From an uncultured Pseudacidovorax sp. (GTDB lineage: Bacteria; Pseudomonadota; Gammaproteobacteria; Burkholderiales; Burkholderiaceae_C): DNA of 55,767 bases. The stretch spans positions 1 through 55,767 of the forward strand of contig NZ_CAJYES010000201.1 in the NCBI RefSeq assembly GCF_913773995.1, read 5' to 3'. The position numbers and the translations under genes were made by a program. Under the pieces are notes generated by a model that was not told the origin of the DNA, made no database searches, and saw nothing but the letters and a program-made list of their open reading frames with translations. This document shows positions 21,885-53,199 of this stretch, one piece after another. Positions within the stretch are counted from its first letter, which is position 1. Each line of letters begins with the position of its first letter.

Positions 21885-21911
21885 CGGCTTCAGCAGGCTC
21901 CGCCCGAACGG
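21885..21911. repeat. REP-like dispersed repeat, copy 2 (degenerate)
   Basis: A degenerate copy of the same element (CGGCTTCAGCAGGCTCCGCC followed by CGAACGG), in the same orientation as copy 1 and about 53 bases after it. The gap 21786-22004 between the molybdenum hydroxylase and proA holds these two copies and no gene. Confidence 0.6.
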
Positions 21912-37574: not shown

Positions 37575-37593
37575 CCGGATTCCTCGAAGAAAC

Positions 37594-38397
37594 GTGTTCA
37601 AACTCACCAGCCTCAACCTCAACGGCCTGCGTTCCGCCTCGACAAAAGGGGTCGCCGACTGGGTGGCCGAAGCGGCGCCGGATTGTATTTGCATGCAGGA
37701 GATCCGCGTCCAGGCCAGCGACGTGCAGGGCCGCTTCGAAAAAATGGCGGGCCTGAACGGCCACTTCCACTTCGCCGAGAAGAAGGGCTACGCCGGCACC
37801 GCCATCTACACGAAGCACGAGCCCACCGACATCGTGATCGGCTGGGGCAACACCGAGTTCGACGCCGAGGGCCGCTACCTGGAGCTGCGCTTCGACACGC
37901 CGGCGCGCAAGCTGTCGATCATCAGCTGCTACTTCCCGAGCGGCAGCTCGGGCGAGGAGCGGCAGGCGGCCAAGTTCCGCTTCCTCGAAGGCTTCATGCC
38001 CTATCTCGTGGAACTGAAGCGCACCCGCGAATTCATCCTCTGCGGCGACATCAACATCGCCCACAAGGAAGCCGACCTGAAGAACTGGAAGGGCAACCTC
38101 AAGAACAGCGGCTTCCTGCCCGAGGAGCGCGCCTGGATGACCCGCCTGCTCGACGCCGGCGCCGAGGGCGCGGGCCTGGTGGACGTGTACCGCCACCTGC
38201 AGCCCGACACCACCGACGCCTGCTACACCTGGTGGAGCAACCGCGGCCAGGCCTATGCCAAGAACGTGGGCTGGCGGCTGGACTACCACCTGGCCACGCC
38301 GGCCATGGCGCAGCTCGCGCGCAGCGAGCACATCTTCAAGACCATCAAGTTCAGCGACCACGCGCCGATCACCATCGATTACGACTTCACGCTTTAG
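37594..38397 (+). CDS. xth: Exodeoxyribonuclease III family AP endonuclease
   Basis: A 267-residue enzyme of the exonuclease III/AP endonuclease fold with GTG start. Active-site stretches are complete: [15 protein letters not shown] with the metal-binding Glu, [33 protein letters not shown] and [11 protein letters not shown]. It incises DNA 5' to abasic sites and removes blocked 3' ends in base excision repair. It starts just beyond the divergent pyrE start, so the promoters must overlap the coding ends. Confidence 0.94.
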
Positions 38398-39382: not shown

Positions 39383-39808
39383 TCAGGCCAGGCTGAACAC
39401 CACGTCCTGCGCGCCTTCCCACAGCACGCGGCGGCCCAGCTCGGGCAGGTGCTCGCGGCCTTCGACGATCGTCAGGAAGTGGTTGCCGGCCAGCGTGCCC
39501 ATGCGGCTGGCGAAGCTGCAGGCGCCATAGGCCAGGATGATCTCGGTCTCGCTGTAGCCGCCGGGGTAGAACAGCACGTCGCCGCGCGACGGATGGCTGG
39601 TGTGGTTCTCGAAGCCCACCGGCGCGCCGTCATGGGTCAGCCGGAACTCGCCCAGGGGCACCCAGCAGCCTTCGCCGCTCCAGCGCACGTGGATGAGCTT
39701 CTGCCGGTAGGGCAGCAGCTGAAGGAAGGCGGCCACGGTCTGCGGTGCGTCGGGATGGGTCTCGGCGACGAAGTCGAAGCCGGCGGCCTGCATTCGGATA
39801 CGGGTCAT
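39383..39808 (-). CDS. DUF3830 family protein
   Basis: A 141-residue protein with no signal peptide and a cyclophilin-like, all-beta character. Family pattern: FDFVAETHPDAPQTVAAFLQLLPY near the start, HVRWSGEGCWVPLG, NHTSHPSRGDVLFYPGG, EIILAYGACSFASRMG and a C-terminal WEGAQDVVF. DUF3830 has no proven reaction, though such genes recur beside amidohydrolases and transporters for cyclic amides. It is the last of twelve co-directional genes, 29 bases after the amidohydrolase, and no clear ribosome binding site precedes it. A non-catalytic or isomerase-like helper role is only a guess. Confidence 0.8.
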   Translation of the reverse strand: MTRIRMQAAGFDFVAETHPDAPQTVAAFLQLLPYRQKLIHVRWSGEGCWVPLGEFRLTHDGAPVGFENHTSHPSRGDVLFYPGGYSETEIILAYGACSFASRMGTLAGNHFLTIVEGREHLPELGRRVLWEGAQDVVFSLA

Positions 39809-39837
39809 GAAGAAGGATTCTGGAAAAGGAGGAAGGG

Positions 39838-41298
39838 TCAGCAGCAGCCGCCCAGGAAGCGGCCGTCGCGGCAGAAGGGTGCCATGTCTTCGGCGAAGGC
39901 CTGGACCGTCCGCCGCCAGCCGGCATGGCGAGTGTCGGCGACCAGGGCCGAGCGCATGCGCTCGCGCAGCTCGACGTGCAGGGCCACCTCGTCCACGCCC
40001 AGGACGCGCCCCGCCGCCACCACCGTGCGGCCCCCGGCGATGACGGTGTGCACATGCCGGCCCGTGCCGCGCGCGAGCAGCAGGTCCAGCGGGTCGACGT
40101 CGTCGAACAGGGCATCGTCGTCCAGCGCGTCCCAGTCGAGCAGCACGAGGTCCGCGCGCTCGCCCGGCGCGATGCGCCCGCGCGAGGCGAAGCGCCACAG
40201 CTGCGCCGGCGTCATCGTGGTGTCGTAGCCCCAGCCGCGGTGCAGCGCATAGGCCAGGCGCGCCTCGCGCAGGGCGTCGTCGTCCTCGTCGAAGGCCATG
40301 CCGTCCAGCCCCATGGCCACGCGGCAGCCCTGCGCCAGCATCTGCGCGAGCGGGGCGATGCCCGACTTCAGGCCCAGGTTGGAGCTGGTGTTGACCGCGA
40401 TGGTCGCGCCGCGCTCGGCGATCAGGGCCAGCTCCTCCGGCCGCGCCCAGGTGCAATGCGCCAGCGTGAGCCGCGGGCCGAGCAGGCCGATGTCGTCCAG
40501 GAAGCGCACGATGCCGCCCGGATGCGCGGCATCGGCCCAGGCACGCTGGTACTGCGTCTCCAGCAAGTGCATGTGCACGCGCCGGCCGGTCTCTGCCGAG
40601 GCCTGGGCGATGGCTTCGAGCAGCGGCGTGCTGCACCACTGCACGCCGGTGGGGCCGTACTGCAGGTCCGTGTGCGCGTTTAGGCCCTCGGCCGCGAAGC
40701 GCTGCGCCACTTCTTCCACCAGCGCGAGCTGCTGCGCGGGTGCCACCGAAGGCGCGGACAGCCGGCGGGCGATGTCGGCACGGATCGCCGGGCGCAGCGC
40801 GGCCAGCACCGTCGCGTCATCCGCATAACCCAACCCGTGGCGGTCGCGCAGGGCCACGGCGAAGCCGATGCGCACGCCCACGTCGCGCGCGGCACGTCCC
40901 ACGGCCGCGGCCTCGTCGACGTAGGGCAGGCCGCCCTGCACGCGGGTGTAGTGCACCATCAGGTCGACCACGCCGTTGCGCAGCGAACGGGCGAAGGAAG
41001 TCGCGGCGCACAGGTACGGGTCCATGCCCGGCACCATGCCGAGGAAGGGCAGCCAGCTTTCGAGCGGCTGGCCGAAGGCACCTAGGGTGGCGCTGCGCAC
41101 GGTGCGCGCATGGTCGTGCGCATTGGCCAGCGCCGGCAGCGCCATGCGGCGGCGGCCGGTCACCGGGGCAGGCAGGGTCTCGATGGCGGACACGACACCG
41201 CCATCGAGCCGGATGCGCATGTCGCGCTGCGCGGGCGCGGCACCGGGCTCGCCCAGCAGCCAGGCGCAGTCGATGGCGGTGGGGGAGGCGTCGCTCAT
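39838..41298 (-). CDS. Zinc amidohydrolase of the AtzA/TrzN/SsnA group
   Basis: A 486-residue metal-dependent amidohydrolase. Metal ligands: His61 and His63 in NAHDHAR, a His in MHLLETQYQRAW, a His in LAHCTWARPEE and an Asp in GLDGMAFDEDDD. SSNLGLKSGIAPLAQML is typical of the group that deaminates or dechlorinates ring compounds (guanine, cytosine, s-triazines). The substrate cannot be fixed from sequence; a ring deamination feeding the ring-opening enzyme of the same cluster is plausible. The start overlaps the stop of the upstream binding-protein gene as ATGA, tying it to the transporter. Confidence 0.83.
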   Translation of the reverse strand: MSDASPTAIDCAWLLGEPGAAPAQRDMRIRLDGGVVSAIETLPAPVTGRRRMALPALANAHDHARTVRSATLGAFGQPLESWLPFLGMVPGMDPYLCAATSFARSLRNGVVDLMVHYTRVQGGLPYVDEAAAVGRAARDVGVRIGFAVALRDRHGLGYADDATVLAALRPAIRADIARRLSAPSVAPAQQLALVEEVAQRFAAEGLNAHTDLQYGPTGVQWCSTPLLEAIAQASAETGRRVHMHLLETQYQRAWADAAHPGGIVRFLDDIGLLGPRLTLAHCTWARPEELALIAERGATIAVNTSSNLGLKSGIAPLAQMLAQGCRVAMGLDGMAFDEDDDALREARLAYALHRGWGYDTTMTPAQLWRFASRGRIAPGERADLVLLDWDALDDDALFDDVDPLDLLLARGTGRHVHTVIAGGRTVVAAGRVLGVDEVALHVELRERMRSALVADTRHAGWRRTVQAFAEDMAPFCRDGRFLGGCC

Positions 41299-42356
41299 CG
41301 CTTGGCGACCGTGCGCTCGGCCAGGGGCGGCAGGAAGCGCCGGTCGAACACCTCGGCGGCGGTGGGCACGCGCGGCAGGTCGAAGGCCTCCTTGAGCTGC
41401 AGGAACGCGCGGGCGAAGCGGGCATCGCTGATATCGCCCAGGCCCTGCGTGGCCACCTCGGGCGTGAGCATGACGGTCTTCAGCGTATAGAGCAGCCGGC
41501 GCTTCTCCAGCTCCTTGTTGAGCAGCGGCTCGCGCTTGACCAGCGCCGCGATGGCGGCATCGGGGTCGGCGATGGTGTCGCGCACCGCATGGTTGATCGC
41601 CCGCACCAGACCGGCCACGGCCTCGGGCCGCTCGCGCAGCAGCTGCTGCGACACCATCACGCCGTTGCCATACAGCTCCACGCCGTAGTCGCCGTAGTGG
41701 AACCACCGGATGTCCTTGTCGGGGTCGATGCCCTGGGCCACCAGGTTCATGTAGCTGGTGACCGAGAACACGGCCGCGGCATCCACATGGCCCTTGAGCA
41801 ACAGCTGCTCCTGCAGGTTGGGCGCGACGTTGGTCCAGGCGACCTTGGCGGCATCGATGCGGGCGCGCGTCGCGATCACCGGGAACATGCGGGCCGCGGC
41901 ACCGCCGGCCGGCGTGCCGACCGTGCGGCCCTGCAGGTCCTGGGGCGTGCGGATGGGTCCGTCGGCCTTGGCAATGAGCGCGAAGGGTGCGCGGTTGTAG
42001 AGCATGTAGACCATCACCGGCGCCTGGCCCGGCTTGGCCGTAGCGTTCTGCACGATGGCGTTCACGTCGCCGAAGCCGGCCTGGTAGGCACCCGCCATGA
42101 TCTTGGTGACGGTGGCGGCCGAGCCGTCGCCCTGGTCGATGATCACGGCCAGCTTCTCGCGGGCGAAGTAGCCGCGGTCCTGAGCCAGGTAGTACCAGGC
42201 GTGCACGCCCTGCAGCTTCCAGTCGAGCACGAACTTGATCGGGGTCTCGGCCTGCGCGGCGGCCGGTGCTGGCGCCAGCCCGGCGCCCATGGCCATCAGG
42301 ATGGACAGGGCCGACAGTGCCAAGCCGGCGGCACGACGGGAAAAGGGGCGGGACAT
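41295..42356 (-). CDS. ABC substrate-binding protein, NitT/TauT (THI5-like) family, copy 1
   Basis: A 353-residue precursor with a signal peptide (SRRAAGLALSALSILMAMG, cleavage near AAAQAE). The mature protein begins TPIKFVLDWKLQG and shows the family's LAQDRGYF, YQAGFGDVNAI, VYMLYN and APNLQEQ. It is a close paralogue of the protein at 47735-48784: 40 of the first 60 mature residues are identical in a gap-free alignment by eye, and both end with EVFDRRFLP. THI5/NMT1-like members bind pyrimidine and other heterocyclic precursors. AAGGAG precedes the start. It is 175 bases after the permease, across a repeat-bearing gap. Confidence 0.88.
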   Translation of the reverse strand: MSRPFSRRAAGLALSALSILMAMGAGLAPAPAAAQAETPIKFVLDWKLQGVHAWYYLAQDRGYFAREKLAVIIDQGDGSAATVTKIMAGAYQAGFGDVNAIVQNATAKPGQAPVMVYMLYNRAPFALIAKADGPIRTPQDLQGRTVGTPAGGAAARMFPVIATRARIDAAKVAWTNVAPNLQEQLLLKGHVDAAAVFSVTSYMNLVAQGIDPDKDIRWFHYGDYGVELYGNGVMVSQQLLRERPEAVAGLVRAINHAVRDTIADPDAAIAALVKREPLLNKELEKRRLLYTLKTVMLTPEVATQGLGDISDARFARAFLQLKEAFDLPRVPTAAEVFDRRFLPPLAERTVAKR

Positions 42357-42416
42357 GGAAGCTCCTTGGAAAAGAGAAAAGAAAACGGCATCCGTGTGCC
42401 GGTCCGCACCGGCTTA

Positions 42417-42442
42417 CCCGTTCGCCCTGAGGTGCCGAAAGG
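42417..42442. repeat. REP-like element, inverted partner
   Basis: CCCGTTCGCCCTGAGGTGCC followed by GAAAGG, a degenerate copy in opposite orientation to the element at 42461. The two together form a REP doublet between the permease and binding-protein genes. Confidence 0.5.
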
Positions 42443-42460
42443 CTGGCGCACCTGCGTGCC

Positions 42461-42487
42461 CCGGCTTCGACAGGCTCAGCCCGAACG
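42461..42487. repeat. REP-like dispersed repeat, copy 3
   Basis: It contains CTTCGACAGGCTCAGCCCGA followed by ACGG, almost identical to the copy at 21805. The gap 42357-42531 in the middle of the catabolic operon holds this doublet and no gene. It may reduce or process the transcript between permease and binding protein. Confidence 0.7.
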
Positions 42488-42531
42488 GCTGTGGGTTGAC
42501 CCGAACCGTCTTGGGTGCACCGACCCGAGCC

Positions 42532-43395
42532 TCAGGCGCCGGTCGCCGCCAGGTCGGTCTTGCGCTGCGACCAGCCGGTCACGCGCCGCTCCACCAGGGC
42601 CGACAGCGCATAGAGCAGCACGCCCATGGCCGCCAGCAGGAAGAGCCCGGCGAACACCATCGGCACGTCGAAGTTGCCGCTGGCGATCATCATCACGGTG
42701 CCGATGCCGCGGTTGGAGGCCACGGTCTCGGACAGCACCGTGCCCACGAAGGACAGCGTGATGGCGATCTTGAGCGAGGCGAACAGATAGGGCATGGCGC
42801 GCGGCAGGCCCACGTTCCAGAGGATGTCGCGCTTGCGCGCGCCCAGCACGCGCAGCACGTCCTCCAGCTCGGGCTCGGTGCTCGCCAGCCCGGTGGCCAC
42901 GTTGACCACCACCGGAAAGATGCTGATGACCATCGAGGTCAGCACCGCCGGCACGGTGCCGGCCCCGAACCACACGACGAACAGCGGCACCACCGCCACC
43001 TTCGGGATGCTGGAGAAGCCCACCAGCAGCGGATAGGTGACGTCGTAGGCCAGCCGCGACGAGCCGATGCCCACGCCGATGACGATGCCCGCGGCCACGC
43101 CCAGCGCGAAGCCGAGCAGCGTGGTGTAGAGCGTCTGCACCGTGTGCGGCCACAGGAGCGGCATGCGCTCGATCAGCACCCGGGCGATCTGGCTGGGCCG
43201 CGGCAGCACCAGGTCCGAAATGCCGCTGGCCAGGCAGATGAGCTCCCAGGCCAGGAAGAAGCCGACCAGCGCCAGCGCGGAGAGCAGGCGCTGGCGCGCC
43301 AGGGGAGACAGCCGCGGCGTGGCGAGGGCTGTGGGTTCGACTGCGGATGCGGACATGGGTTCGGCCGCGTTCGCGATGTTCACGCGCGCGTTCAT
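42532..43395 (-). CDS. ABC transporter permease, NitT/TauT family
   Basis: A 287-residue inner-membrane protein with six transmembrane helices and the EAA-type loop (EPELEDVLRVLGARKRDILWNVGLPRAMPYLFASLK) that contacts the ATPase. The family is that of SsuC/TauC and the HMP-precursor permeases. Its start overlaps the ATPase stop as ATGA, so the two are coupled. It is the only permease in the cluster and must serve both THI5-like binding proteins if both are active. Confidence 0.93.
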   Translation of the reverse strand: MNARVNIANAAEPMSASAVEPTALATPRLSPLARQRLLSALALVGFFLAWELICLASGISDLVLPRPSQIARVLIERMPLLWPHTVQTLYTTLLGFALGVAAGIVIGVGIGSSRLAYDVTYPLLVGFSSIPKVAVVPLFVVWFGAGTVPAVLTSMVISIFPVVVNVATGLASTEPELEDVLRVLGARKRDILWNVGLPRAMPYLFASLKIAITLSFVGTVLSETVASNRGIGTVMMIASGNFDVPMVFAGLFLLAAMGVLLYALSALVERRVTGWSQRKTDLAATGA

Positions 43396-44261
43396 GCCGC
43401 CACCCCCTGCAGTGCGGGCACCGACACGGGTGGAGACGTGGCATCGCCGTCGCAGCGCGCCTCGGCGATGCGCATGCGCAGCTGCTGCACCAGCGCGCCG
43501 AAGGCCGGGTCGTAGCTGGACTGCAGCGTGCGCGGCCGGGCGAAGTCCACGTCGCGCGTCTCGAGGATGCGGCCGGGCCGTGCGCTCATCACGCAGATGC
43601 GGTTGGCCAGGTAGGCCGACTCGCGCAGGTCGTGCGTCACCAGCAGCACCGTGGGCCGCTGGGTCATCCACAGCGTCTGCATGATGTCCCACAGCTCCTC
43701 GCGGGTGAACTGGTCGAGGGCGCCGAAGGGCTCGTCCAGCAGCAGCAGCTCGGGCTGGTGCACCAGCGCGCGGCACAGCGAGGCGCGCTGCAGCATGCCG
43801 CCCGACAGCTGCCAGGGCCGCTTGTCGCCGAAACCACGCAGGCCCACCTGGGCCAGCAGCGCGTCGGCACGCTCGGCGTATTCGCCACGCTTCTTGCGCG
43901 CGTAGTCCTGGCGGAAGGGCTCGACGATCTTCAGCGGGATCATCACGTTCTCGCGGATCGTCAGCCACGGCAGCATGGTCGGGTTCTGGAAGGCCAGCCC
44001 GATGCGCAGCGCCGGTCGCCCGGCGGCCACGGGCCGTGCACCGGCCGACCCCACTTCGCGGCCGCCGGCGATCACCGCGCCCGAGGTGGGACGCAGCAGG
44101 CCGGCCAGCAGCTTGAGGATGGTCGACTTGCCGCAGCCGCTGGGGCCCACCAGTGCGACGAAGTCGCCGCGGTCGATCCCCAGCGTGGTGTGGTCCAGGG
44201 CGATGGTGCCGCCGCCGTAGCGCAGCATCACGTCGGAAAGTTGGATGAAGCTCTGGCTCAT
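43392..44261 (-). CDS. ABC transporter ATP-binding protein, NitT/TauT family
   Basis: A 289-residue ATPase. Walker A GPSGCGKST at residues 39-47, Q-loop in FQNPTMLPW, signature LSGGMLQRASL, Walker B LLLLDEPFGALD and switch His in LLVTHDLRES. The C-terminal 45 residues go beyond the core and are low in conservation. CAGGAAC precedes the start. It follows the ring-opening amidohydrolase by 27 bases and overlaps the permease start. Confidence 0.94.
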   Translation of the reverse strand: MSQSFIQLSDVMLRYGGGTIALDHTTLGIDRGDFVALVGPSGCGKSTILKLLAGLLRPTSGAVIAGGREVGSAGARPVAAGRPALRIGLAFQNPTMLPWLTIRENVMIPLKIVEPFRQDYARKKRGEYAERADALLAQVGLRGFGDKRPWQLSGGMLQRASLCRALVHQPELLLLDEPFGALDQFTREELWDIMQTLWMTQRPTVLLVTHDLRESAYLANRICVMSARPGRILETRDVDFARPRTLQSSYDPAFGALVQQLRMRIAEARCDGDATSPPVSVPALQGVAA

Positions 44262-44288
44262 GAGGTGTTCCTGCAGAAAAGAGGACGT

Positions 44289-45416
44289 TCAGGCCACGCG
44301 CACCAGCGCCGCCACCGGGCCGCCGCCGGGCGGCCCCTGGTGCTCGGCACCACCGGAGACGTAGAGCGCCGTGCGCCCGACCACCGAGGCCAGCACGGCC
44401 CCCACGGCGGCACGCGCATGGCGGGTCGAATGGATGTCCGAGTCGTTCAGCATGGTGTGGCGCGCCTCGCGCACCCGGCCGTCGGGACTGGCCTCGGCCT
44501 TGGCCAGCAGGTTGACCAGGCGCTGCGCGATCAGGGCGGCGTCGGCTTCCGGGTCCAGGCCGAAGTGCTCGCGCAGCAGCATGCGCAGGCCGGCCGTGTC
44601 GACCGCGTCGCGCATCAGCGCATGGCCGATGCGCAGCGGCGAGGCGCTGCCCACCGCCTCGCCCAGCACGATGACCACGTTGCCCTCCAGCTCGATGCCG
44701 GCCGACACCGAGGCACGCGCCGAATGAAGGGTGAGGTCGTGCAGCACGGCGGCGTCGGTGGCGCGCGCCGGATCGACCTCGCCCAGGGCCACGCCCACGC
44801 CCAGCGCCGAGGCGGCGCGGGAATAGCCCATCGATTCGTAGGTGTCGCGGGTGACGGTGTCCTGCCCCCGGCGCAGCGCGTCGTCCACCTTGGCGGCCGT
44901 CAGCAGCGGGCACTTCACCTGCACGAAGTGAACGTCGGCGGCGCTGTCGATGCCGGCGTCGCGCATGGCCGCCTGCACCGCCTCGGCCGTGGCGGCGATC
45001 TGCGCCTGGCGTCCCATCTCCTCCGGCGCGAAGTCGCGCGTGTGGGCGATGCCGACCACCAGTCGCTTCTCACCTTCGACCACCTCGTGCGGCAATGCCG
45101 CGCGGCGGGTGAAGACGGTGAAGTGCGGCGACAGCACGCCCTCGGTGCCGCCGGACATCACCAGCGCCACCTGCGCATGCACCGCCTGCGGCGTGCAGCC
45201 GCGGTGCGGCGCGAGGTAGTGGCACCAGGCCATGGCGGCGAAGTCGCGGGTGTGGTCGTTGACGCAGCCGTTGCCCTCGGTCTTGCCCATCACGGCCACG
45301 ATGTGGCGCGGGTCGAGCGTGCCGCCCTCGACCAGGGCCTGCACGCCGCTCAGGTCGCCGGGGCCGCGGCAGGGCACCACGTGCGCGTCCACATGCTGGG
45401 GAACGGCGCCGCTCAC
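44289..45416 (-). CDS. Ring-opening amidohydrolase, cyanuric acid hydrolase/barbiturase family (AtzD-like)
   Basis: A 375-residue protein of the small AtzD/TrzD/barbiturase family, which hydrolyses one amide of a planar cyclic ureide (cyanuric acid to carboxybiuret, or barbiturate to ureidomalonate). The threefold repeat with three Lys-Ser pairs is visible: Lys45/Ser88 (GKTEGNG, MSGGTEG), Lys168/Ser238 (QVKCPLL, VSAGIEL) and Lys306/Ser354 (LLAKAEAS, YVSGGAEHQGP). HTMLNDSDIHSTRHARAAVG and SRAASALGVGVALGE look more like the cyanuric acid hydrolases than barbiturase as I remember them. GTG start overlapping the stop of the upstream cyclic amidase as GTGA. The family is near certain; the substrate is inferred. 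Confidence 0.88.
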   Translation of the reverse strand: MSGAVPQHVDAHVVPCRGPGDLSGVQALVEGGTLDPRHIVAVMGKTEGNGCVNDHTRDFAAMAWCHYLAPHRGCTPQAVHAQVALVMSGGTEGVLSPHFTVFTRRAALPHEVVEGEKRLVVGIAHTRDFAPEEMGRQAQIAATAEAVQAAMRDAGIDSAADVHFVQVKCPLLTAAKVDDALRRGQDTVTRDTYESMGYSRAASALGVGVALGEVDPARATDAAVLHDLTLHSARASVSAGIELEGNVVIVLGEAVGSASPLRIGHALMRDAVDTAGLRMLLREHFGLDPEADAALIAQRLVNLLAKAEASPDGRVREARHTMLNDSDIHSTRHARAAVGAVLASVVGRTALYVSGGAEHQGPPGGGPVAALVRVA

Positions 45417-46885
45417 GTCGCGCTCCAGTCCACCTCGCCCGCCGGCACTGCGGTGGGCGGCACGCCGGGGGGTGTCTCCAGGATGGCGCGGCTGTAGTGC
45501 TCGGTGTTGCGCGGCCGCGGCGTGGGCATCTTCTGCACCGCCTTGACCGAGCGGCCCCAGCCCACCGCGTCTTCCACCAGCCGGCCTTCGCGCATGACGA
45601 AGCGGCCGCGCAGCAGCGTGTGCAGCGGATAGCCCTGCACCGGCCGGCCGTTCCAGGGCGAGATGCGGCTGATGCTCTGCAGCTTGTTCTGCGACAGCAC
45701 GCCCTGGCGCGCCATGTCGACGATGGCGATGTCTGCATGGGCGCCGGGCGCGATCACGCCCTTGGTGCCGTACAGGCCCCAGGCCCTGGCGGGCGCCACG
45801 GCGCTCCAGCGCACATAGTCCATCAGCGTGGCGCGGCCACGATTGACCTCGGTGAGCATCAGCGGCATCTGCGTCTCCACGCCCGGAAAGCCGCAGTCGC
45901 AGTCCCAGATGCTCTCGCGCGTCTTCTCCTCCGGCGCATGCGGCGCATGGTCGGTGGCGATCATGTCCAGCGTGCCGTCCATCAGTGCGTCCCACAGCGG
46001 CTGGTTGTGGCGCGGCTCGCGGATGGGCGGGTTCAGCCGCATCACGCCACCGAGCTTGCGCATGTGTTCGGTGTTGAGCAGCAGGTACTGCGGGCAGGTC
46101 TCGGCCGTCACGTCCACGCCGCGGCGCTTGGCCTCGCGCAGCAGGAAGAGCGAATCCGCCGCGCTGTGGTGCGCGATGTGCACCCGCGCGCCGGTCCATT
46201 CGGCCAGCGTGAGCACGCGGCCGATGGCCTCGATCTCGGCCACGGCGGGCCGCGCCGCCAGGTGCGCCAGGGCGTCGATACGGCCGGCGTCCTGCATCTT
46301 CTTCTGGCGGCGGAAGAGGATCGACGAGTTCTCGGCATGCACCACGGTGCGGATGCCCAGTGGCGCCAGCGTCTCGAAGCCCTCCAGCAGCGCACCGTCG
46401 GTGGGCGCGGGCAGGTTGCCGAAGGTGTTGCCGACGAAGGCCTTGAAGCTGGTGACGCCGGCGTCGAGCAGTTCTTCCAGCCGCTCGATGGTGTCGTCGC
46501 CCAGCAGGCCGTGGATGCCGAAGTCACAGTACGACGCCTCGGCCGCCATCTGCTTGAGCCGCAGCGCCTCCACCGTGCCTGTGGCCGGCGAGGTGTTGGG
46601 CATGTCGAACACGGTGGTCACGCCGCCCAGGGCCGCGGCGGCCGAGCCGGTGCGCCAGGTCTCCTTGTGCGGATAGCCCGGGTCGCGGAAGTGCACATGG
46701 CTGTCGATGGCCCCGGGCAGCAGGAACAGGCCGTCGGCCCGCAGTTCTTCGCGTGCCGGCGGCATGGTGTCGTCGTGGCCCACGGCCACGATCTGCTCGC
46801 CGGCGATGGCCACGCTGGCGGGCACGATGGCGTCGGGCGAGACCACGCTCGCGCCGCGGATGACGAGGTCGACTTCAGGTCGCAT
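45413..46885 (-). CDS. Cyclic amidohydrolase, dihydroorotase/allantoinase/hydantoinase superfamily
   Basis: A 490-residue zinc-dependent cyclic amidase. Metal ligands: His63 and His65 in DSHVHFRDPG, the carbamylated Lys148 in TSFKAF, His residues in VVHAENS and HIAHHSA, and Asp in ATDHAPHAPEE. TAETCPQYLLL and WGLYGTKGVIAPGAHADI fit the allantoinase/dihydroorotase branch. About 40 residues beyond the core (from AVGWGRSVKAVQ) are unusual. It opens a five- or six-membered cyclic amide; allantoin, a hydantoin or a dihydropyrimidine are possible. GGGGAG lies 9 bases before the start, just after the SDR stop. Confidence 0.87.
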   Translation of the reverse strand: MRPEVDLVIRGASVVSPDAIVPASVAIAGEQIVAVGHDDTMPPAREELRADGLFLLPGAIDSHVHFRDPGYPHKETWRTGSAAAALGGVTTVFDMPNTSPATGTVEALRLKQMAAEASYCDFGIHGLLGDDTIERLEELLDAGVTSFKAFVGNTFGNLPAPTDGALLEGFETLAPLGIRTVVHAENSSILFRRQKKMQDAGRIDALAHLAARPAVAEIEAIGRVLTLAEWTGARVHIAHHSAADSLFLLREAKRRGVDVTAETCPQYLLLNTEHMRKLGGVMRLNPPIREPRHNQPLWDALMDGTLDMIATDHAPHAPEEKTRESIWDCDCGFPGVETQMPLMLTEVNRGRATLMDYVRWSAVAPARAWGLYGTKGVIAPGAHADIAIVDMARQGVLSQNKLQSISRISPWNGRPVQGYPLHTLLRGRFVMREGRLVEDAVGWGRSVKAVQKMPTPRPRNTEHYSRAILETPPGVPPTAVPAGEVDWSAT

Positions 46886-46902
46886 GCTGCTCACTCCCCG
46901 GC

Positions 46903-47694
46903 TCACAGCGCGGCCCAGCCGCCGTCCACCGGCAGGTCGGCGCCGGTGATCTGCCGCGACACCTCGCTGGCCATGAACAGGCAGGCGTTGGCAATGTCGG
47001 TGTCGGTGGAGACACGCCGCAATGCGTAGTCGGCGGCATGGCGCTGCATGGCTTCCTCCAGCGTGATGCCCAGACGCTGGGCCATGTTGGCGCACACCTT
47101 CTCGCGGAAACGCGGGCCGTCCACCATGCCCGGCGCGACGTTGTTGACGTTGATGTTGTGCGGCCCGGCCTCCAGCGCAAAGCTCTTGGTGATGCCGCGC
47201 AGGCCCCACTTGGAGGCCGAGTAGGCCATGCGCCCGGCGCGCCCGCGCAGGCCGAAGGTGCCGCCCACATTGACGATCTTGCCGCTGCGCTGCTCCACCA
47301 TCGCCGGCATGACGGCGCGGATGGTGTTGAAGCAGCCGGTCATGTTCAGGCGCACGATCTCGTCGAACTCTTCCGTCGTCGTTTCCCAGCCGGTCTTGCC
47401 GATGGGGCCCGAGCCGCCGGCCACGTTGACCAGGATGTCGATGCGGCCGAAGGCGGCCAGCGCCGCCGTAGCCAGGGCCTCGGTCTGGCTGGAGACGGTG
47501 AGGTCGCAGGCCACCACCTGCGCCGCCACGCCAAGGGCGCGGGCCTCCGCGGCCACGGGTTCGATGGCGGCGGTGTCGCGGCCGGCCAGCACCAGCCTGG
47601 CGCCTTCTCGGGCGAAGGCCAGGGTAATGGCGGCGCCCATGCCCTTGGCCGGGCCGGTGATGATGGCGACCTTGTCGCGCAGTTGCAGATCCAT
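46903..47694 (-). CDS. Short-chain dehydrogenase/reductase with atypical active site
   Basis: A 263-residue classical SDR. Cofactor motif TGPAKGMG at residues 13-20, NVAGG (usual NAG) near 90, Asn117, and the catalytic pair Tyr158/Lys162 in YSASK. The catalytic Ser, expected 13 residues before the Tyr, is Gly145 here (NVGGTFG), with Thr146 next to it. The enzyme may use the Thr or have altered activity. Asp40 after the second beta strand suggests NAD(H). Its position between a binding protein and the cyclic amidase suggests an oxidation or reduction in the same pathway. C-terminal signature ITGADLPVDGGW is intact. Confidence 0.87.
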   Translation of the reverse strand: MDLQLRDKVAIITGPAKGMGAAITLAFAREGARLVLAGRDTAAIEPVAAEARALGVAAQVVACDLTVSSQTEALATAALAAFGRIDILVNVAGGSGPIGKTGWETTTEEFDEIVRLNMTGCFNTIRAVMPAMVEQRSGKIVNVGGTFGLRGRAGRMAYSASKWGLRGITKSFALEAGPHNINVNNVAPGMVDGPRFREKVCANMAQRLGITLEEAMQRHAADYALRRVSTDTDIANACLFMASEVSRQITGADLPVDGGWAAL

Positions 47695-47734
47695 GGCGGT
47701 CTCGTCTTTCTTCAGAGGGTTTTGTCGGTGGTGT

Positions 47735-48784
47735 TCAGGGCGCGACGGTGCTGGACGGGCGCTCGGCGCGCGCCGGCAGGAAGCGGCGGTCGAAGACCTC
47801 GCCCACCTCGGGCTGGCGTGGCAGCTGGTTGGCCTCGGCCACGATGCCGATGGCCTTCTTCAGTCGCTCGTCGTCCACGTCACCCAGGCCGATGCGGGCG
47901 ATCTCGGGATGGCTCATGTCGTTCCTGAGCGTGGCCAGCAGCTTCTCTTTCTCGACCTCACGCTTGAGCAGCGGCTCGCGCTTCATCACCGCGTCGATGC
48001 CGGCCTCGGGATTGGCGAGCACCTCCTTGATGGCGCGATTAAGGGCCTTGACGAAGCCGGCCACGGCCTGGGGCTTCTCCTGCACGAAGCTGCGCGAGAA
48101 GAACACGGTGTTGGCATAGAGGTCCATGCCGTGGTCGCCGTAGCGGATGAAGCGCAGGTCCTTGGCCGGGTCCAGCCCCATGCCGCGGGCGCTGAAGCTC
48201 ACGGTGGTGACATAGCCGAAGGCGCCGTCGATCTGGCCGCGCACCAGCATCTGCTCGCGCAGGTTGGGTGCCATGTTCGAGATCGTGACCTTGGCGGCAT
48301 CGACCTTGGCCAGCTTGGCGAAGGCCGGGAAGAGCTTGAGCGCGCCGTCGTTGGCCGGGCCGCCGATGGTCTTGCCTTCGAGGTCCTTGGGGCTTTTGAT
48401 CGGGCTGTCGCTGCGCACCACCACCGCGAAGGGCGGCGTGTTGTAGAGCATGTAAACGCCCACCGGCGCATCGGCCGGCCGCTTGGCCGCCAGGTCGATC
48501 AGCGCATTCATGTCGCCGAAGCCGGCCTGGTAGGTGCCGGCGGCCACCTTCGGGATCGAGGCGGCCGAGCCCTCGCCCTGGTCGATGCTGACGTCCAGGC
48601 CCTCCTGCTTGAAGTAGCCGCGGTCCTGCGCCAGGAAGAACCAGGCCTGCGGGCCTTCGTATTTCCAGTTGAGCACCAGCTTGATCGGCGTCTGCGCGGC
48701 GGCGGGCAGCGCGGCCAGCGCCAGGGCGGCGGCGCCGATGAGCGGCCGTGTCCAGCGTGCGAGAAGGGAGAGGGTCGAGGTCAT
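47735..48784 (-). CDS. ABC substrate-binding protein, NitT/TauT (THI5-like) family, copy 2
   Basis: A 349-residue precursor with a signal peptide (cleavage near LPAAAQT). The mature protein starts TPIKLVLNWKYEG and carries LAQDRGYF, YQAGFGDMNAL, VYMLYN, APNLREQ and the end EVFDRRFLPAR, the same landmarks as the copy at 41295-42356. No permease or ATPase gene lies beside this copy; it probably delivers to the shared transporter at 42532-44261. GAGGAG precedes the start. It stands 40 bases ahead of the SDR gene and 11 after the cysteine hydrolase gene. Confidence 0.88.
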   Translation of the reverse strand: MTSTLSLLARWTRPLIGAAALALAALPAAAQTPIKLVLNWKYEGPQAWFFLAQDRGYFKQEGLDVSIDQGEGSAASIPKVAAGTYQAGFGDMNALIDLAAKRPADAPVGVYMLYNTPPFAVVVRSDSPIKSPKDLEGKTIGGPANDGALKLFPAFAKLAKVDAAKVTISNMAPNLREQMLVRGQIDGAFGYVTTVSFSARGMGLDPAKDLRFIRYGDHGMDLYANTVFFSRSFVQEKPQAVAGFVKALNRAIKEVLANPEAGIDAVMKREPLLKREVEKEKLLATLRNDMSHPEIARIGLGDVDDERLKKAIGIVAEANQLPRQPEVGEVFDRRFLPARAERPSSTVAP

Positions 48785-48795
48785 GGTGAAGCTCC

Positions 48796-49629
48796 TCAGT
48801 CAGGTTGGGAAGGAAGGTCGGCAAGCGCTGCACCAAGGTCGGCGGCGCGCGCGGTGAAGCCGTGCAGCAGGCGCACGAGGTAGAGCACGCCGTCGGTCAC
48901 GTAGTCGGGCGACGAGGTGCTGCAGGCGTCCTCCAGCAGCACGCAGTCGTAGCCCAGGAAGGCCGCGTCCTGCAGCGTGGAGAACACGCAGCGGTCGGTG
49001 TTGATGCCGGCGAACAGGAGGGTGGTGATGCCGGCGTTGCGCAGCACGCTGTCGAGCTCGCTGTCCCAGAAGCCCGACAGCCGGTGCTTGTGCACCAGGA
49101 TGTCGCCGGGCTCGGCCGTGAGCTCGTCGACCAGTGCCGCGCCCCAGCTGCCCTGGACCAGCGAGGGCCCGTGGTCGATAGGCGAGCACTCGCCATAGCC
49201 CACGCCTTCGGCCGTGCGCTTGCCCTTGAACTGCACTGTGGGGCCGAGGTTGCGTCGATCGGCACGGATGCCCCAGTTGCACCAGACGAGCGGACTGCCC
49301 GCGCGGCGCCAGGCGGGCAGCAGCGCCTGCAGCACCGGGATGGGCCGCCGCGCGGCCTGCACGTCCAGGCCCTTTTGGCCGAACCAGCCTTCGGGGTGGC
49401 AGAAGTCGTTCTGCATGTCGACCACCACCAGGGCGGTGCGAGCCAGGTCGATCACCAGCGATTCCGGCTGTGCCGGAAGCGCCAGCGGGCGCGGCACTGG
49501 CGGCGTGCGGACCAGGCTCAGGTGCCCGTCCTGCAACTGCCAGCGGTTGGCGGCCGCGGGGCCGAAGCCGGGGGCGTCGCCGGTGGCCGTGTCCAACTTG
49601 GTGCCGGGAGTGCTTTCATCACTGTGCAT
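48796..49629 (-). CDS. Isochorismatase-fold cysteine hydrolase (candidate biuret or ureido-acid hydrolase)
   Basis: A 277-residue protein from the ATG at 49629; a GTG at 49668 would add 13 residues. After a roughly 65-residue N-terminal extension comes the isochorismatase-like core with catalytic Asp75 (DMQNDF), Lys181 (HKHRLSGF) and Cys214 (NTDRCVFSTLQDA). The family cleaves linear amides such as biuret (BiuH), ureidoacrylate (RutB) and N-carbamoylsarcosine. Next to a ring-opening amidohydrolase it is a natural candidate for the second step, acting on the opened product. The sequence differs from the BiuH I remember, so the substrate is open. Confidence 0.84.
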   Translation of the reverse strand: MHSDESTPGTKLDTATGDAPGFGPAAANRWQLQDGHLSLVRTPPVPRPLALPAQPESLVIDLARTALVVVDMQNDFCHPEGWFGQKGLDVQAARRPIPVLQALLPAWRRAGSPLVWCNWGIRADRRNLGPTVQFKGKRTAEGVGYGECSPIDHGPSLVQGSWGAALVDELTAEPGDILVHKHRLSGFWDSELDSVLRNAGITTLLFAGINTDRCVFSTLQDAAFLGYDCVLLEDACSTSSPDYVTDGVLYLVRLLHGFTARAADLGAALADLPSQPD

Positions 49630-49726
49630 GCGCCGGGAGCACGCATCGCCCGTGCCACCAGCGCTCACCTTCCGGCGCTTTATCGCGCCAGCGCCGTTGC
49701 CGTTTCGGCAACGGTCTGCCGGCGCC

Positions 49727-50524
49727 TCAGAGATTGGCCGGCAGCGGCTGCTTGAGCCAGCGCGTGGCCATGGCGGCGAGCCGGCCGTTGGCCTTGATTT
49801 CCGCGATGGCCGCGTTGATCCGCTCGAGCAGCCGCTGCTCGCCCTTGGTGACGGCGGCGCACACGGGCGAGTTCATCAGCAGGAACTTCTGCTCCGGCTT
49901 GCGCGGCGGGTTCTTCTCCATGATGGCCGCGGCCACGATGTTGCCGACCGACATGAGGTCACTCTGTCCGCTGAGGAAGGAGCTGATGGTGTTGCTGTGG
50001 TCCTCGTAGCGCTGGATCGCCGCCTCGGGCGGGGCCATCTTCGTGAGAAGCTGGTCCTCGAGCGTGCCGCGCGTCACCGCGATCTTCTTGCCGGCCAGGT
50101 CGGCCACGCCCGTGGCAGTCTGGTCGACCGGACCGAACACGCCGATGTAGTAGGGCGCGTACGGCTGTGTGAAGTCCACCACCTTGGCGCGCTCTTCATT
50201 GCGGCCGATGTTGAGCAGCAGGTCGGCCTTGCGCGTGGCCATGGTCGGGATCTTGGACTGCGCCGTCACCCGCACCAGCTCGGCCTTCACCCCCAGCGCC
50301 GCCGCCACCAGGTTGGCGAACTCCACGTCGTAGCCCTGTGGGCTCATATTGGCATCGACCGAGCCGAAGGGCGGGTAGTCGAGCGTGATGGCGACGCGCA
50401 GCACGCCCGCCTTCTGCACGTCGTCGAGCGTGTCGGCCAGCGCGGCGGGCAGTGTGAGCAAGGAGCCGCCGGCCGCCACGGCCAGGGCGAGGATGGAACG
50501 TCGGAACATGGTGGAGGTCCTCAT
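49727..50524 (-). CDS. Polar amino acid-type ABC substrate-binding protein (SBP family 3)
   Basis: A 265-residue precursor with a signal peptide (FRRSILALAVAAGG, cleavage near AALADT). Family 3 landmarks: GVLRVAITLDYPPFGSVDA, GYDVEFANLVAAAL, RKADLLLNIGRNEERAKVVDFTQPY, LAGKKIAVTRGT and a C-terminal INAAIAEIKANGRLAAMATRWL. It is unrelated to the two THI5-like proteins of the cluster. No amino-acid-type permease or ATPase is in the window, so it is an orphan. It may serve a transporter elsewhere or take part in sensing. Its start overlaps the alpha/beta hydrolase stop as ATGA. Confidence 0.9.
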   Translation of the reverse strand: MRTSTMFRRSILALAVAAGGSLLTLPAALADTLDDVQKAGVLRVAITLDYPPFGSVDANMSPQGYDVEFANLVAAALGVKAELVRVTAQSKIPTMATRKADLLLNIGRNEERAKVVDFTQPYAPYYIGVFGPVDQTATGVADLAGKKIAVTRGTLEDQLLTKMAPPEAAIQRYEDHSNTISSFLSGQSDLMSVGNIVAAAIMEKNPPRKPEQKFLLMNSPVCAAVTKGEQRLLERINAAIAEIKANGRLAAMATRWLKQPLPANL

Positions 50525-51288
50525 TGGGTTTCGAGCAGGAAGGCGTGCAGCGCGGCGTCGAAGGCCTCGGGCGTCTCGACCATCGGCGTGTGCCCGCTCT
50601 CGGGCATGTGCGCGAGGCGGCTGTTGGGAATGCCGGCCAGCAGGGTGTTCGCGTGGTCGATGGTGCGGCCCGCGTCGTGCGCGCCGAACACCACCAGCGT
50701 GGGCGCGGTGATCTTCGGCAGCAGGGGCCGGCAGTCGGTGTCGAGCAGGCTCTGCTGCACGTCGATCATGGCGGCCAGGGGCGCCGCCTGGGCGCGCGCC
50801 ACATAGCCCTCGAAGAAGCCTTCGGGGAGTTCGCGGAACCAGTGCGCACTGATCTCGCGCAGGTTGGCATGGCCGTTGTCGCGCAGGTCCTGCAGCAGCA
50901 CCCGGCCCAGCGTGTGGTTGGTCATGACGGCGCCGGTGCACACCAGCACCACGCCGCCGTAGCGCCCGGGGTCGTTCGAGGCGGCGATCTGGCTGACCAC
51001 GCCGCCCATCGAATGGCCGCCGATCACGGGCTTTTCGAGATCCAGCGCGTCGACGAAGCCGCGCACGCGGCGCGCCAGCGACTGCACGCTGTAGCCGTCG
51101 GGTGGCGCGCCCGAGCGCAGGAAGTTGTCGATGGCGTAGCCGCGCCAGCCGGCGGGCAGCGCCTGCAGGGTGCGCTCCCACAGTTCCGAGGAGCTGCCGA
51201 AGCCGCCGTGCAGGAAGACGATGGCGCGCTCGCCGCGGCCGGCTTCGATGTAGTGGACGGGTACCCCGTCGACGGAAATGGTGGGCAT
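50521..51288 (-). CDS. Alpha/beta hydrolase, first gene of the catabolic operon
   Basis: A 255-residue alpha/beta-fold hydrolase with oxyanion region FLHGGFGSS, nucleophile Ser93 in GHSMGG, an acidic residue in VVFGAHDAG and His in ESGHTPMVETP. Similar enzymes include RutD and ring-fission product hydrolases; the substrate is unknown. Start at 51288 (MPTISVDGVPVHYIEAG), where the conserved fold begins. It is the first gene behind the promoter at 51322-51350 and overlaps the next start codon. Confidence 0.86.
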   Translation of the reverse strand: MPTISVDGVPVHYIEAGRGERAIVFLHGGFGSSSELWERTLQALPAGWRGYAIDNFLRSGAPPDGYSVQSLARRVRGFVDALDLEKPVIGGHSMGGVVSQIAASNDPGRYGGVVLVCTGAVMTNHTLGRVLLQDLRDNGHANLREISAHWFRELPEGFFEGYVARAQAAPLAAMIDVQQSLLDTDCRPLLPKITAPTLVVFGAHDAGRTIDHANTLLAGIPNSRLAHMPESGHTPMVETPEAFDAALHAFLLETQ

Positions 51289-51394: not shown

Positions 51395-52294
51395 ATGACC
51401 ACCACGCACCACTACGCCCACATCGGCGAGCGCCTGCGCAGCCGGCGCCAGGACGCACGCCTGAGCACCGAGCAGGTGGCGCGCGCGGCCGGCATCTCGC
51501 GCGCGCTGCTCTACCGCTACGAGTCGGGCGATGTGGTCAAGCTCGAGGTGCTCGAAAGGCTGGCCCGGCTGTACGAGACCTCGACCAGTGCCCTGCTCGG
51601 CCTGGGCAACGAGTACATCACCCACGGCATGCTGTTCTTCGACCGCCAGCAGCGGCTGGAGGCCGAGGCCACGCAGATGACCGTGGTGTTCGGGCCGCAG
51701 GCGTACATGCTGAGTTCGGACGACTACGACGCCGCACTGGCCGAACGCCTGGTCGACCGGCGCGACGACCAGACCGCCCTGAGTCCGGCCGAGGCCGAGC
51801 GCCTGATGCACCTGCTGGCCAAGCGCAAGGCCGCCTTCGCACGCAACCGGCCGGCGCTCGTCAACATCGTGCCGGTGAGCGACATCGAGCGCTATCTCAC
51901 ACACGGGCTCGGTGGCCACCCGCGGCTGCCCGCGGCAGAACGCGCTGCCCGGCGCGTGGCCGCGCGGCGCGAGATGGAACGGCTGGCCGGCCTGATCGCC
52001 TCGCCGCCGATGGGCGTGCAGGTCGTGCTGACCACCCAGCCGCTGCCGACCAGCGGTTTCCAGCTGGTCCAGCTGCCGCACGGGCGCCGCGTGCTGGTGA
52101 CCAGCCCCTTCCGCATCGTGGAGCCGACCAACCTGCACTATGGCGTGGCGATGATCAGCGAGGACGAGGAAGCACTGCGCCTGCACGAGACGCTGGCGGC
52201 GCGCCTGTGGGACTCGGCCCTGAAGGGTGCAGCGGCCAGCGCCGAGATGGCGCGCCTGCTGCACGCGCACGCAGACACCACAATGGGCGCATGA
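51395..52294 (+). CDS. XRE-family transcriptional regulator with unknown C-terminal domain
   Basis: A 299-residue protein. Residues about 8-65 form an XRE helix-turn-helix (IGERLRSRRQDARLSTEQVARAAGISRALLYRYESGD). The remaining 230 residues are not a cupin or peptidase fold that I recognise; they contain two charged helices (AERLMHLLAKRKAAFARN; AERAARRVAARREMERLAGL) and a beta-rich end. It is divergent from the catabolic operon and overlaps the LysR gene by ATGA, so both regulators are made together. It probably controls the operon; direction unknown. Confidence 0.85.
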   Translation: MTTTHHYAHIGERLRSRRQDARLSTEQVARAAGISRALLYRYESGDVVKLEVLERLARLYETSTSALLGLGNEYITHGMLFFDRQQRLEAEATQMTVVFGPQAYMLSSDDYDAALAERLVDRRDDQTALSPAEAERLMHLLAKRKAAFARNRPALVNIVPVSDIERYLTHGLGGHPRLPAAERAARRVAARREMERLAGLIASPPMGVQVVLTTQPLPTSGFQLVQLPHGRRVLVTSPFRIVEPTNLHYGVAMISEDEEALRLHETLAARLWDSALKGAAASAEMARLLHAHADTTMGA

Positions 52295-53199
52295 ACCATC
52301 TGCGCCTGCTGCGCTACGTCGATGAAGTGGCGCGCATCGGCTCCATCCGCCAGGCGGCCGAGCGGCTGCACGTCGCGCCTTCGGCCGTCAACCGCCGCAT
52401 CCAGGACATCGAGGAGGAGCTGGGCACGCCCATCTTCGAGCGGCTGCCGCGCGGCATGCGGCTCACCGCCGCGGGCGAGCTGTTCGTGCGCTACATCCGC
52501 GACCGCGGCGCCGAGCTGGAGCGGGTGCGCTCCGAGATCGAGGAACTGCAGGGCCTGCGCCGCGGCCGGGTGCGGCTGGTGGCCAGCCAGGCGCTGGCGC
52601 CGCGCTTCCTGCCGGCGGCCATCGCAGCCTTCCGCGAGACGCATCCGCTGGTGGCCTTCGACGCGCGCATCGGCGACCACGTGCATGCCGCCGAAGCCCT
52701 GCGCAGCCTGGACACCGATCTGGCCCTGGTGTTCAACCTGCCGGCCGAGTCCGACATCCAGCGGCTGGACGTGGCCGGCCAGCGGCTGATGGCCATGATG
52801 CACGTCGAGCATCCGCTGGCCGGTCACACCGCATTGCGGCTGCGCGATTGCGCCGACTATCCCCTCGTGCTGCCCAACCGGGACATCGGTGGCCGCCAGC
52901 TGCTGGAGCGCTTCCTCGCGCGCAGCTCCACCCGCTTCCAGCCCATGGTGGAGAGCAACAGCTTCGAGTTCCTGCGCGGCTGCCTGGCCGACCGCCGGTC
53001 CATCACCTTCCAGATGGCGGTGGGCACCGAGCTGGGCGATGCCGAGCTGGTCGCCCGCGCCATCGAGGACCGGGCCTTTCCGCAGGGCGAACTGGTGCTG
53101 GGCTGCCTGCGCGGCCGGCAGCTGCCGGTGATCGCCTACGCGTTCGCCGAATTCCTGCGCGAGCGCCTCGCGGCGCTGGGCGCCGAGGGCATCAGCTGA
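52291..53199 (+). CDS. LysR-family transcriptional regulator
   Basis: A 302-residue LysR-type protein with N-terminal winged helix (RLLRYVDEVARIGSIRQAAERLHVAPSAVNRRIQDIEEELG, then FERLPRGMRLTAAGE), linker helix, and a substrate-binding domain with RVRLVASQALAPRFLPAAIAAF. The AtzR regulator of cyanuric acid degradation in Pseudomonas also belongs to this family, but the resemblance here is only at family level. The start overlaps the XRE stop. Its 3' end overlaps the convergent hemerythrin gene by 8 bases. Confidence 0.9.
   Translation: MNHLRLLRYVDEVARIGSIRQAAERLHVAPSAVNRRIQDIEEELGTPIFERLPRGMRLTAAGELFVRYIRDRGAELERVRSEIEELQGLRRGRVRLVASQALAPRFLPAAIAAFRETHPLVAFDARIGDHVHAAEALRSLDTDLALVFNLPAESDIQRLDVAGQRLMAMMHVEHPLAGHTALRLRDCADYPLVLPNRDIGGRQLLERFLARSSTRFQPMVESNSFEFLRGCLADRRSITFQMAVGTELGDAELVARAIEDRAFPQGELVLGCLRGRQLPVIAYAFAEFLRERLAALGAEGIS

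Follow-up and report, generated by a model that had tools for sequence, protein, structure and literature searches.

A conserved gene cluster for the probable uptake and catabolism of ureides or triazines in an uncultured Pseudacidovorax sp.

Cyanuric acid hydrolases are known mainly from s-triazine degradation. They form an ancient family according to PMC6557486, and PMC7948467 describes how triuret and cyanuric acid converge on carboxybiuret, followed by biuret (the substrate of BiuH) and allophanate (that of AtzF); it suggests that both triuret and cyanuric acid may arise in nature when uric acid is chemically oxidised. The closest described systems are the atzDGEHF operon of Pseudomonas sp. 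ADP and the Rhizobium operons for cyanuric acid/biuret and for triuret (TrtA-BiuH-AtzF), the latter as given in PMC5806882 and PMC7948467. Here we report on a series of twelve genes (39383–51288, minus strand) in an uncultured Pseudacidovorax sp.; the window that was analysed is the entire contig C201 (NZ_CAJYES010000201.1; 55,767 bases), one of the 261 contigs that make up a genome of 5.37 Mb. The parts are known families, and we read their combination as a locus for ureide/triazine catabolism that carries an importer of its own. An earlier sequence-only reading of the window had seen in these genes a locus for the uptake and hydrolysis of a cyclic ureide or triazine ring that goes beyond the known cyanuric acid and barbiturate routes; our analysis supports it in this and finds the locus conserved.

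The ADP operon (L179) resembles the window in its divergent LysR-type gene next to AtzD, the AtzD proteins being 58% identical, and in an ATP-binding cassette (ABC) importer nearby. On the other hand, the window cluster has no AtzE, AtzG, AtzH or AtzF, its importer is of the THI5 type whereas that of ADP is of the BMP type, and it adds an SDR oxidoreductase, a cyclic amidase (DHO), an AtzA-like amidohydrolase, an isochorismatase-fold hydrolase and a DUF3830 protein. The downstream biuret/carboxybiuret and allophanate hydrolases of AtzDGEHF or AtzD-BiuH-AtzF operons are absent from it. With the Rhizobium operons (L046 and L180) the window shares the company of AtzD and isochorismatase-fold ureide hydrolases, and both AtzD and AtzA-like genes occur in the Rhizobium-type/triuret operons as well as in the window cluster; however, the isochorismatase-fold enzyme of the window fails the BiuH model, the transporter is a different one, and the SDR and cyclic amidase are additions.

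All twelve frames are open and lie on one strand, as the sequence-only reading had stated. Transcribed from 51288, they encode an alpha/beta hydrolase, a family-3 binding protein, the isochorismatase-fold hydrolase, a THI5/NMT1-like binding protein (NMT1a), the SDR, DHO, AtzD, an ABC ATPase, an ABC permease, a second THI5/NMT1-like binding protein (NMT1b), the AtzA-like protein and, ending at 39383, the DUF3830 protein. Pfam was the family basis for 10 of the 12 genes, some of which were scanned as longer frames, and phmmer and NCBIfam for the AtzA-like protein. The importer consists of NMT1a (47735–48784; PF09084, 137 bits), NMT1b (41295–42356; PF09084, 111 bits), the ATPase (43392–44261; PF00005, 111 bits) and the permease (42532–43395; 287 amino acids, 72% identical to annotated ABC permeases in L043 and L044). 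Two of the binding proteins are thus THI5-like, as had been proposed; the third is of family 3.

A species-genome collection was scanned with an alignment of the AtzA-like protein, which gave 388 relatives, and the best 80 named loci were used. A core locus was defined as one with SDR and DHO within the flank; the identity limits were our own choice and low-identity copies may escape them, and loci truncated by contig ends, which cannot display the full cluster, stay among the 80. SDR and DHO were both present in 48 of the 80 loci. The ATPase and the permease were found in all 48, NMT1a and NMT1b in 46 each, LysR in 42, AtzD in 39, the isochorismatase-fold gene in 30, DUF3830 in 28 and an FmdA-type gene in 8. 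The usual core is isochorismatase-fold hydrolase-NMT1a-SDR-DHO-AtzD-ATPase-permease, facing LysR. The closest named loci among the best 80 belong to Pseudacidovorax (AtzD up to 98% and AtzA-like up to 95% identical), and a similar gene set occurs in Comamonadaceae, Alcaligenaceae, Rhodocyclales, Azospirillum, Skermanella and Hyphomicrobiales, the core proteins of the alphaproteobacteria being about 46–78% identical to those of the window. Plasmids carry the cluster in Azospirillum, where AtzD was not found in the stretch or the plasmid at E<=1e-40, and in Skermanella, where AtzD, an FmdA-type gene and DUF3830 are included. A formamidase was considered as a regular step and dropped, given the 8 of 48 core loci and a score of 76.5 of 500 for the Skermanella copy on the FmdA equivalog. 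In a metagenome-assembled genome of Variovorax (L076), several cluster genes gave two adjacent matches each, through frameshifts or mixed duplication.

As the 80 loci were selected through the AtzA-like protein, we also used a less biased draw of 399 genomes of the order, in which each protein was searched separately. AtzD was found in 16 genomes at E<=1e-60 and, besides the source genome, in 11 at E<=1e-100; the AtzA-like protein in 7 at E<=1e-60; and DHO in 7 at E<=1e-120. Among the 398 other genomes, the six with DHO orthologues and the six with AtzA-like orthologues had four in common (hypergeometric P = 2.2e-7), and the 11 with AtzD at E<=1e-100 shared four with DHO (4.7e-6) and five with the AtzA-like protein (3.4e-8), P values that ignore relatedness. 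Conserved co-occurrence of these families, which the sequence-only reading had proposed to look for, is thus found both at the loci and, beyond chance, in the order, and the neighbourhood is conserved in relatives.

The same comparison spoke against the proposal that the twelve genes form one unit. The alpha/beta hydrolase (50521–51288; PF00561, longer frame scanned) and the family-3 binding protein (49727–50509; PF00497, longer frame scanned) occur in 4 of the 48 core loci each and were rejected as core members; in three loci of the same genus (L049, L051 and L099), LysR stands directly before the isochorismatase-fold gene with no genes between. In the window geometry, the 10 kb flank barely reaches the alpha/beta hydrolase and misses the XRE-type regulator beyond it, and absence is less sure where LysR was unseen. 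NMT1b-AtzA behaves as a second, movable module: in G240 it lies on a different contig from the core (L030 and L029, respectively), in L087 and L090–L094 it is on the far side of LysR, and in 7 of the 80 loci (L060, L071, L073, L074, L101, L104 and L127) the AtzA-like gene stands within triuret/biuret-type operons. AtzD is missing from the locus in 9 of the 48 core loci; five of these nine genomes carry it elsewhere, so that 44 of the 48 core genomes have AtzD, against 16 of 399 order-wide.

AtzD (44289–45416) belongs to the cyanuric acid hydrolase/barbiturase family (PF09663, 486 bits with a cut-off of 25), which gave matches in none of 14 control genomes. Against the PDB, it scored 406–309 bits with cyanuric acid hydrolases and 284.5 bits with barbiturase; it is nearer to the former and is predicted to be of the cyanuric acid hydrolase type. 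PMC6557486 names Ser, Lys and Arg of the domains as catalytic residues of the Moorella enzyme, and in an alignment with 6bum, judged by eye, AtzD matches the equivalents of Arg52, Arg193, Arg328, Ser83, Ser231, Ser347 and Lys161, the last being one of three Lys. In a tree of 57 rows, which held no barbiturase and was midpoint-rooted for drawing only, the cluster copies of Burkholderiales fall into a supported group that adjoins ADP AtzD and encloses the copy from a triuret/biuret operon of G171. A second supported group unites the cluster copies of alphaproteobacteria with two Rhizobium biuret-operon copies, its inner order being partly open, and the copy of G097 stands apart from both. Because of these two groups, AtzD has moved between the cluster and biuret-type operons more than once, the direction being a matter of where the root lies, which this tree leaves undecided. 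Of the sequence evidence, this placement speaks most strongly for a role of cyanuric acid in the cluster. The source genome has a second AtzD-family protein on contig C33 (L042 9676–10827; also L002), a long-branch paralogue, 43% identical, which sits between a racemase-like frame (by eye) and an amidase-like frame and also has cyanuric acid hydrolases as its best PDB matches.

The sequence-only reading had noted that no allophanate hydrolase is encoded in the window, which is true of the window and not of the genome, since AtzF is found on contig C177 (740 bits, cut-off 511; among 14 named control genomes the model matched 13 and only 1 passed the cut-off). We thus rejected its absence as a sign of a new end-route. 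C177 (L165) also encodes BiuH (418 bits, cut-off 370; four of the 14 control genomes match and none is over the cut-off) and a second BiuH-like isochorismatase-fold enzyme, within a triuret/biuret-type operon that further comprises an amidase, BMP transporter homologues, a GntR regulator and a nitrilase-family homologue of a gene annotated as formamidase. By these genes, the final steps of the pathway are predicted to be encoded on another contig of the genome. In G413, the series isochorismatase-fold hydrolase-NMT1a-SDR-DHO-ABC stands beside LysR and a triuret/biuret operon that ends with AtzF, AtzA-like and NMT1b (L175 and L101, same contig); as G413 lacks AtzD, its link to biuret does not run through AtzD.

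For the protein comparisons, open reading frames with internal stops, hits with less than 85% query coverage or under the identity limits, and identical copies were excluded, which left 79 AtzA-like, 49 SDR, 44 DHO, 43 AtzD, 33 isochorismatase-fold and 28 DUF3830 sequences. DHO (45413–46885; PF01979, longer frame scanned) is a cyclic amidase of the dihydroorotase/allantoinase/hydantoinase type. It keeps the residues of these enzymes with mixed motifs: it passes the subfamily/domain model TIGR00857 (318.4 bits, cut-off 279.05), is below the cut-offs of all single dihydroorotase equivalogs listed in NCBIfam, and narrowly misses AllB TIGR03178, by 6.5 bits (351.3 of 357.85). Its motifs are HVHFRDPG, MPNT and TDHAPH, the first two close to solved dihydroorotases and the third typical of dihydroorotases, whereas the solved allantoinase 3hm7 reads HFNEPG, MPLN and SDHSP at these positions. 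H63, H65 (44 of 45 sequences), K148, H183, H239 and D312, which we take to form the metal site, are kept, as are Arg67 and Asn97 (45 of 45), residues of a type that presumably binds the carboxylate of dihydroorotate.

The SDR (46903–47694; PF00106, 175 bits) departs from the classical catalytic set Asn-Ser-Tyr-Lys, its Ser being replaced and the other three residues kept. When aligned to the FabG structure 4jro, Gly145 falls at the catalytic Ser of FabG, and Gly145-Thr146, Asn117, Tyr158 and Lys162 are present in 50 of 50 sequences. The isochorismatase-fold protein (48796–49629; PF00857, 132 bits, slightly longer frame scanned), a predicted amide/ureide hydrolase, is of the same family as the RutB and BiuH ureidases and has their D/K/C residues (D71, K181 and C214 in at least 33 of 34 sequences), but it is far under both equivalog cut-offs, with 146.4 of 377.95 bits for RutB (TIGR03614) and 116.7 of 370 for BiuH (NF050097). 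It is nearest to RutB; with BiuH and the second BiuH-like enzyme of the source genome, it shares about 34% identity.

The AtzA-like protein (39838–41298; 486 amino acids), which phmmer matched to PDB amidohydrolases, stayed below every NCBIfam cut-off; its best score was 111.7 of 543, and no equivalog of a named deaminase was reached. Its model (mean predicted local distance difference test score, pLDDT, 91.7) retrieved in Foldseek AtzA, adenosine and isocytosine deaminases, TrzN, formiminoglutamate iminohydrolase and guanine deaminase, and it is 16–23% identical to the structures listed (n=50), with 19% to AtzA itself. H61, H63, H244, E247, H281 and D332, which we assume to have the metal-site roles of the superfamily, were invariant in the 38 sequences of the structure alignment (38 of 80 rows, window included). 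The earlier assignment as AtzA/TrzN-type thus stands at the level of the superfamily, by the invariant metal site, and does not stand for the closer type, given the low identity and the low score. From the metal-site pattern and the model resemblance, it is likely that the protein deaminates or deiminates a small heterocycle or a guanidine.

The DUF3830 protein (39383–39808; 141 amino acids; PF12903, 102.8 bits with a cut-off of 26, longer frame scanned) has a predicted cyclophilin-like fold (mean pLDDT 76.6, residues 84–105 poor). Foldseek ranked 3KOP, a cyclophilin-like protein of Arthrobacter, first (E 7e-6), followed by the Pictet-Spenglerase KslB (E 1e-4); with 16–22% identity, only the predicted fold is shared with them, and the chains of KslB are about twice as long. 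The structure alignment of DUF3830 proteins used 26 of 29 rows, window included. From the modelled fold alone, imine chemistry would be a guess. DUF3830 was found in 11 of 340 genomes, the source genome included. Seven loci away from the cluster were fetched, and ten chosen neighbours from six of them were scanned; amide or cyclic-amide hydrolase genes lie near DUF3830 in four of the seven (L192, L193 and L195 by Pfam, L197 by a 36% tblastn match), an association that is suggestive and not decisive. Other neighbours are a histidine kinase (L197) and a polysaccharide deacetylase (L194). In G210, a DUF3830 gene 77% identical to the window copy (L196 3863–5048) adjoins a gene with a CT_C_D carboxyltransferase domain, on a contig different from that of the main cluster of this genome.

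We see an even chance that the locus scavenges nitrogen from cyclic ureides and amino-triazines through branches that converge on cyanuric acid, biuret and allophanate. The two THI5-like binding proteins and the one ABC transporter would import small nitrogen-rich rings, which the AtzA-like protein may deaminate; the SDR would oxidise or reduce one class of rings, which the cyclic amidase would open; AtzD would open cyanuric acid, imported or formed, to carboxybiuret, which would give biuret and CO2; and the isochorismatase-fold enzyme, with the biuret hydrolase and allophanate hydrolase of C177, would cleave linear ureides to ammonia and CO2. The branches would meet at biuret/allophanate, with no strictly linear chain. 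Several observations weigh against this. The substrates of the enzymes are all predicted, and a hydrolytic funnel does not account for the SDR. AtzD passes NCBIfam NF052395 (522 bits, cut-off 360), but so does the divergent C33 paralogue (458 bits); the test is therefore weak, and we set it aside as proof of cyanuric acid hydrolysis. Four of the 48 core genomes (L102, L105, L107 and L112) and G413 have no AtzD anywhere at E<=1e-40, and in G002 (L041 13600–15000) an M20-type hydrolase (family by eye) takes the position of AtzD with the rest conserved; thus, cyanuric acid is not obligatory for the core. Conversely, AtzD (E<=1e-100) is present in 11 other genomes of the order, 7 of which lack a DHO orthologue; its presence therefore does not mark the cluster. 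In G180, an M20-type gene neighbours a 59% identical DHO, and the 20 kb hold no match to SDR, AtzD or the AtzA-like protein. Finally, a terminator-like site divides the gene series.

The idea of one larger substrate, which the sequence-only reading had oxidised, deaminated and ring-opened step by step, is a guess. Such a linear pathway, in which the AtzA-like protein would deaminate, the SDR oxidise or reduce, the cyclic amidase open a first ring and AtzD a second, and the isochorismatase-fold enzyme cleave the resulting ureide, seems to us rather unlikely. The set does co-occur, and SDR and cyclic amidase, encoded side by side, rank with the best conserved proteins (for example, 87 and 90% in L063, against 72% for AtzD); yet ten genomes (G400, G402, G404–G410 and G415) have the AtzA-like gene and lack both AtzD (E<=1e-40) and the cyclic amidase (E<=1e-120) altogether, AtzD of G171 is in a triuret/biuret operon without a DHO orthologue, and there are the nine core loci without AtzD. 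Because those ten genomes hold the AtzA-like gene without these two, converging branches fit at least as well. It is doubtful, too, that the cluster is a pyrimidine or hydantoin route, with DHO as a catabolic dihydroorotase or a hydrolase of carboxylated hydantoins, the isochorismatase-fold or M20-type enzyme removing the carbamoyl group, and AtzD acting on a barbiturate-like ring. The HxHxR and MPN motifs of DHO agree with solved dihydroorotases and differ from solved allantoinases, the isochorismatase-fold enzyme is nearest to RutB, and an M20-type gene replaces or accompanies AtzD in three genomes (in G052 and G097, relatives of the G002 gene adjoin AtzD) and adjoins DHO in G180. However, AtzD scores up to 406 bits with cyanuric acid hydrolases against the 284.5 with barbiturase, the links of the cluster run to biuret/triuret/allophanate operons, and the carboxylate-binding role of Arg67 and Asn97 is presumed. 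AtzD together with AtzA-superfamily genes makes up the classical atrazine genes, and one could think of a recently assembled xenobiotic pathway for triazine herbicides; this is very improbable, with a similar set across distant taxa, alphaproteobacterial proteins as divergent as given above and an AtzA-like protein 19% identical to AtzA.

Beyond these, we tentatively consider, at low probability, that the cluster serves specifically to salvage oxidised purines, the natural substrate being an oxidised purine or an aza-pyrimidine. The AtzA-like protein would then convert amino products derived from guanine into the corresponding oxo compounds of the urate type (such as ammelide into cyanuric acid, or guanidinohydantoin-type into allantoin-type rings), the SDR without Ser and DHO would process a carboxylated ring (5-azaorotate, that is, oxonate) or a hydantoin, DUF3830 might handle an imine or aminal intermediate, and AtzD, the isochorismatase-fold enzyme, BiuH and AtzF would finish. 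If true, this would supply cyanuric acid hydrolases with a natural, non-herbicide substrate. Independently of this, the cluster could reveal where bacteria encounter cyanuric acid in nature: a cyanuric acid hydrolase-type enzyme that comes with an importer, an SDR, a cyclic amidase and an enzyme of the deaminase type offers concrete proteins for finding the natural precursor. The cluster also places DUF3830, and an SDR subfamily that lacks the classical Ser, in a genomic setting.

The gene set is not described in the open papers searched, which leaves the locus as the candidate for an undescribed pathway that the sequence-only reading had made of it. These papers had none on DUF3830, nothing linking oxonate or 5-azauracil with cyanuric acid, and nothing joining a ring-opening amidohydrolase with allantoinase, NMT1/THI5 or Pseudacidovorax; for KslB, a single paper, on a fungal subject, came up. 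Neighbourhood terms for the cluster were searched in PMC13054789, on dimethylguanine hydrolases, and none were found.

Within the series, 4-base start/stop overlaps join three pairs, DHO/AtzD, ATPase/permease and NMT1b/AtzA-like, where four overlaps had been announced; the tight spacing claimed with them is broken by gaps of 97 bases after the family-3 binding protein and 175 bases after the permease. The latter gap, between permease and NMT1b, has a terminator-like hairpin with a T-rich tail (42401–42386, minus strand; pattern scan only), which is weak evidence, as the region holds 10 such sites against 3.8 in shuffles. Folding of the 175-base gap was no better than in shuffles (z -1.35), and a scan of the region for sigma-70-type promoter patterns gave no match.

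Two divergent regulators on the plus strand point away from the series. The LysR-type gene (52207–53199; PF00126 and PF03466), whose relatives usually stand directly before the isochorismatase-fold gene or NMT1a in opposite orientation, is the probable regulator of the cluster. The XRE-type helix-turn-helix gene (51395–52294; PF13560) is probably outside the core; it was found in 0 of the 48 core loci at >60% identity, a count that is little informative as the window geometry puts it beyond the 10 kb flank, and L113 has a match at 42% identity.

A DHO 78% identical to that of the window follows right after two more distant AtzA-family frames (28 and 45%) in G426 (L174 6585–10945), so that these enzyme types are arranged differently there. 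A dispersed short repeat on the minus strand occurs at 42465–42485, inside the permease-NMT1b gap, and at 21808–21828 and 21888–21908, with at most 3 mismatches and 0 copies expected in shuffles. Past the 3′ end of the cluster, a gene with a phosphoribosyltransferase domain (PF00156) lies at 36885–37694 on the minus strand.

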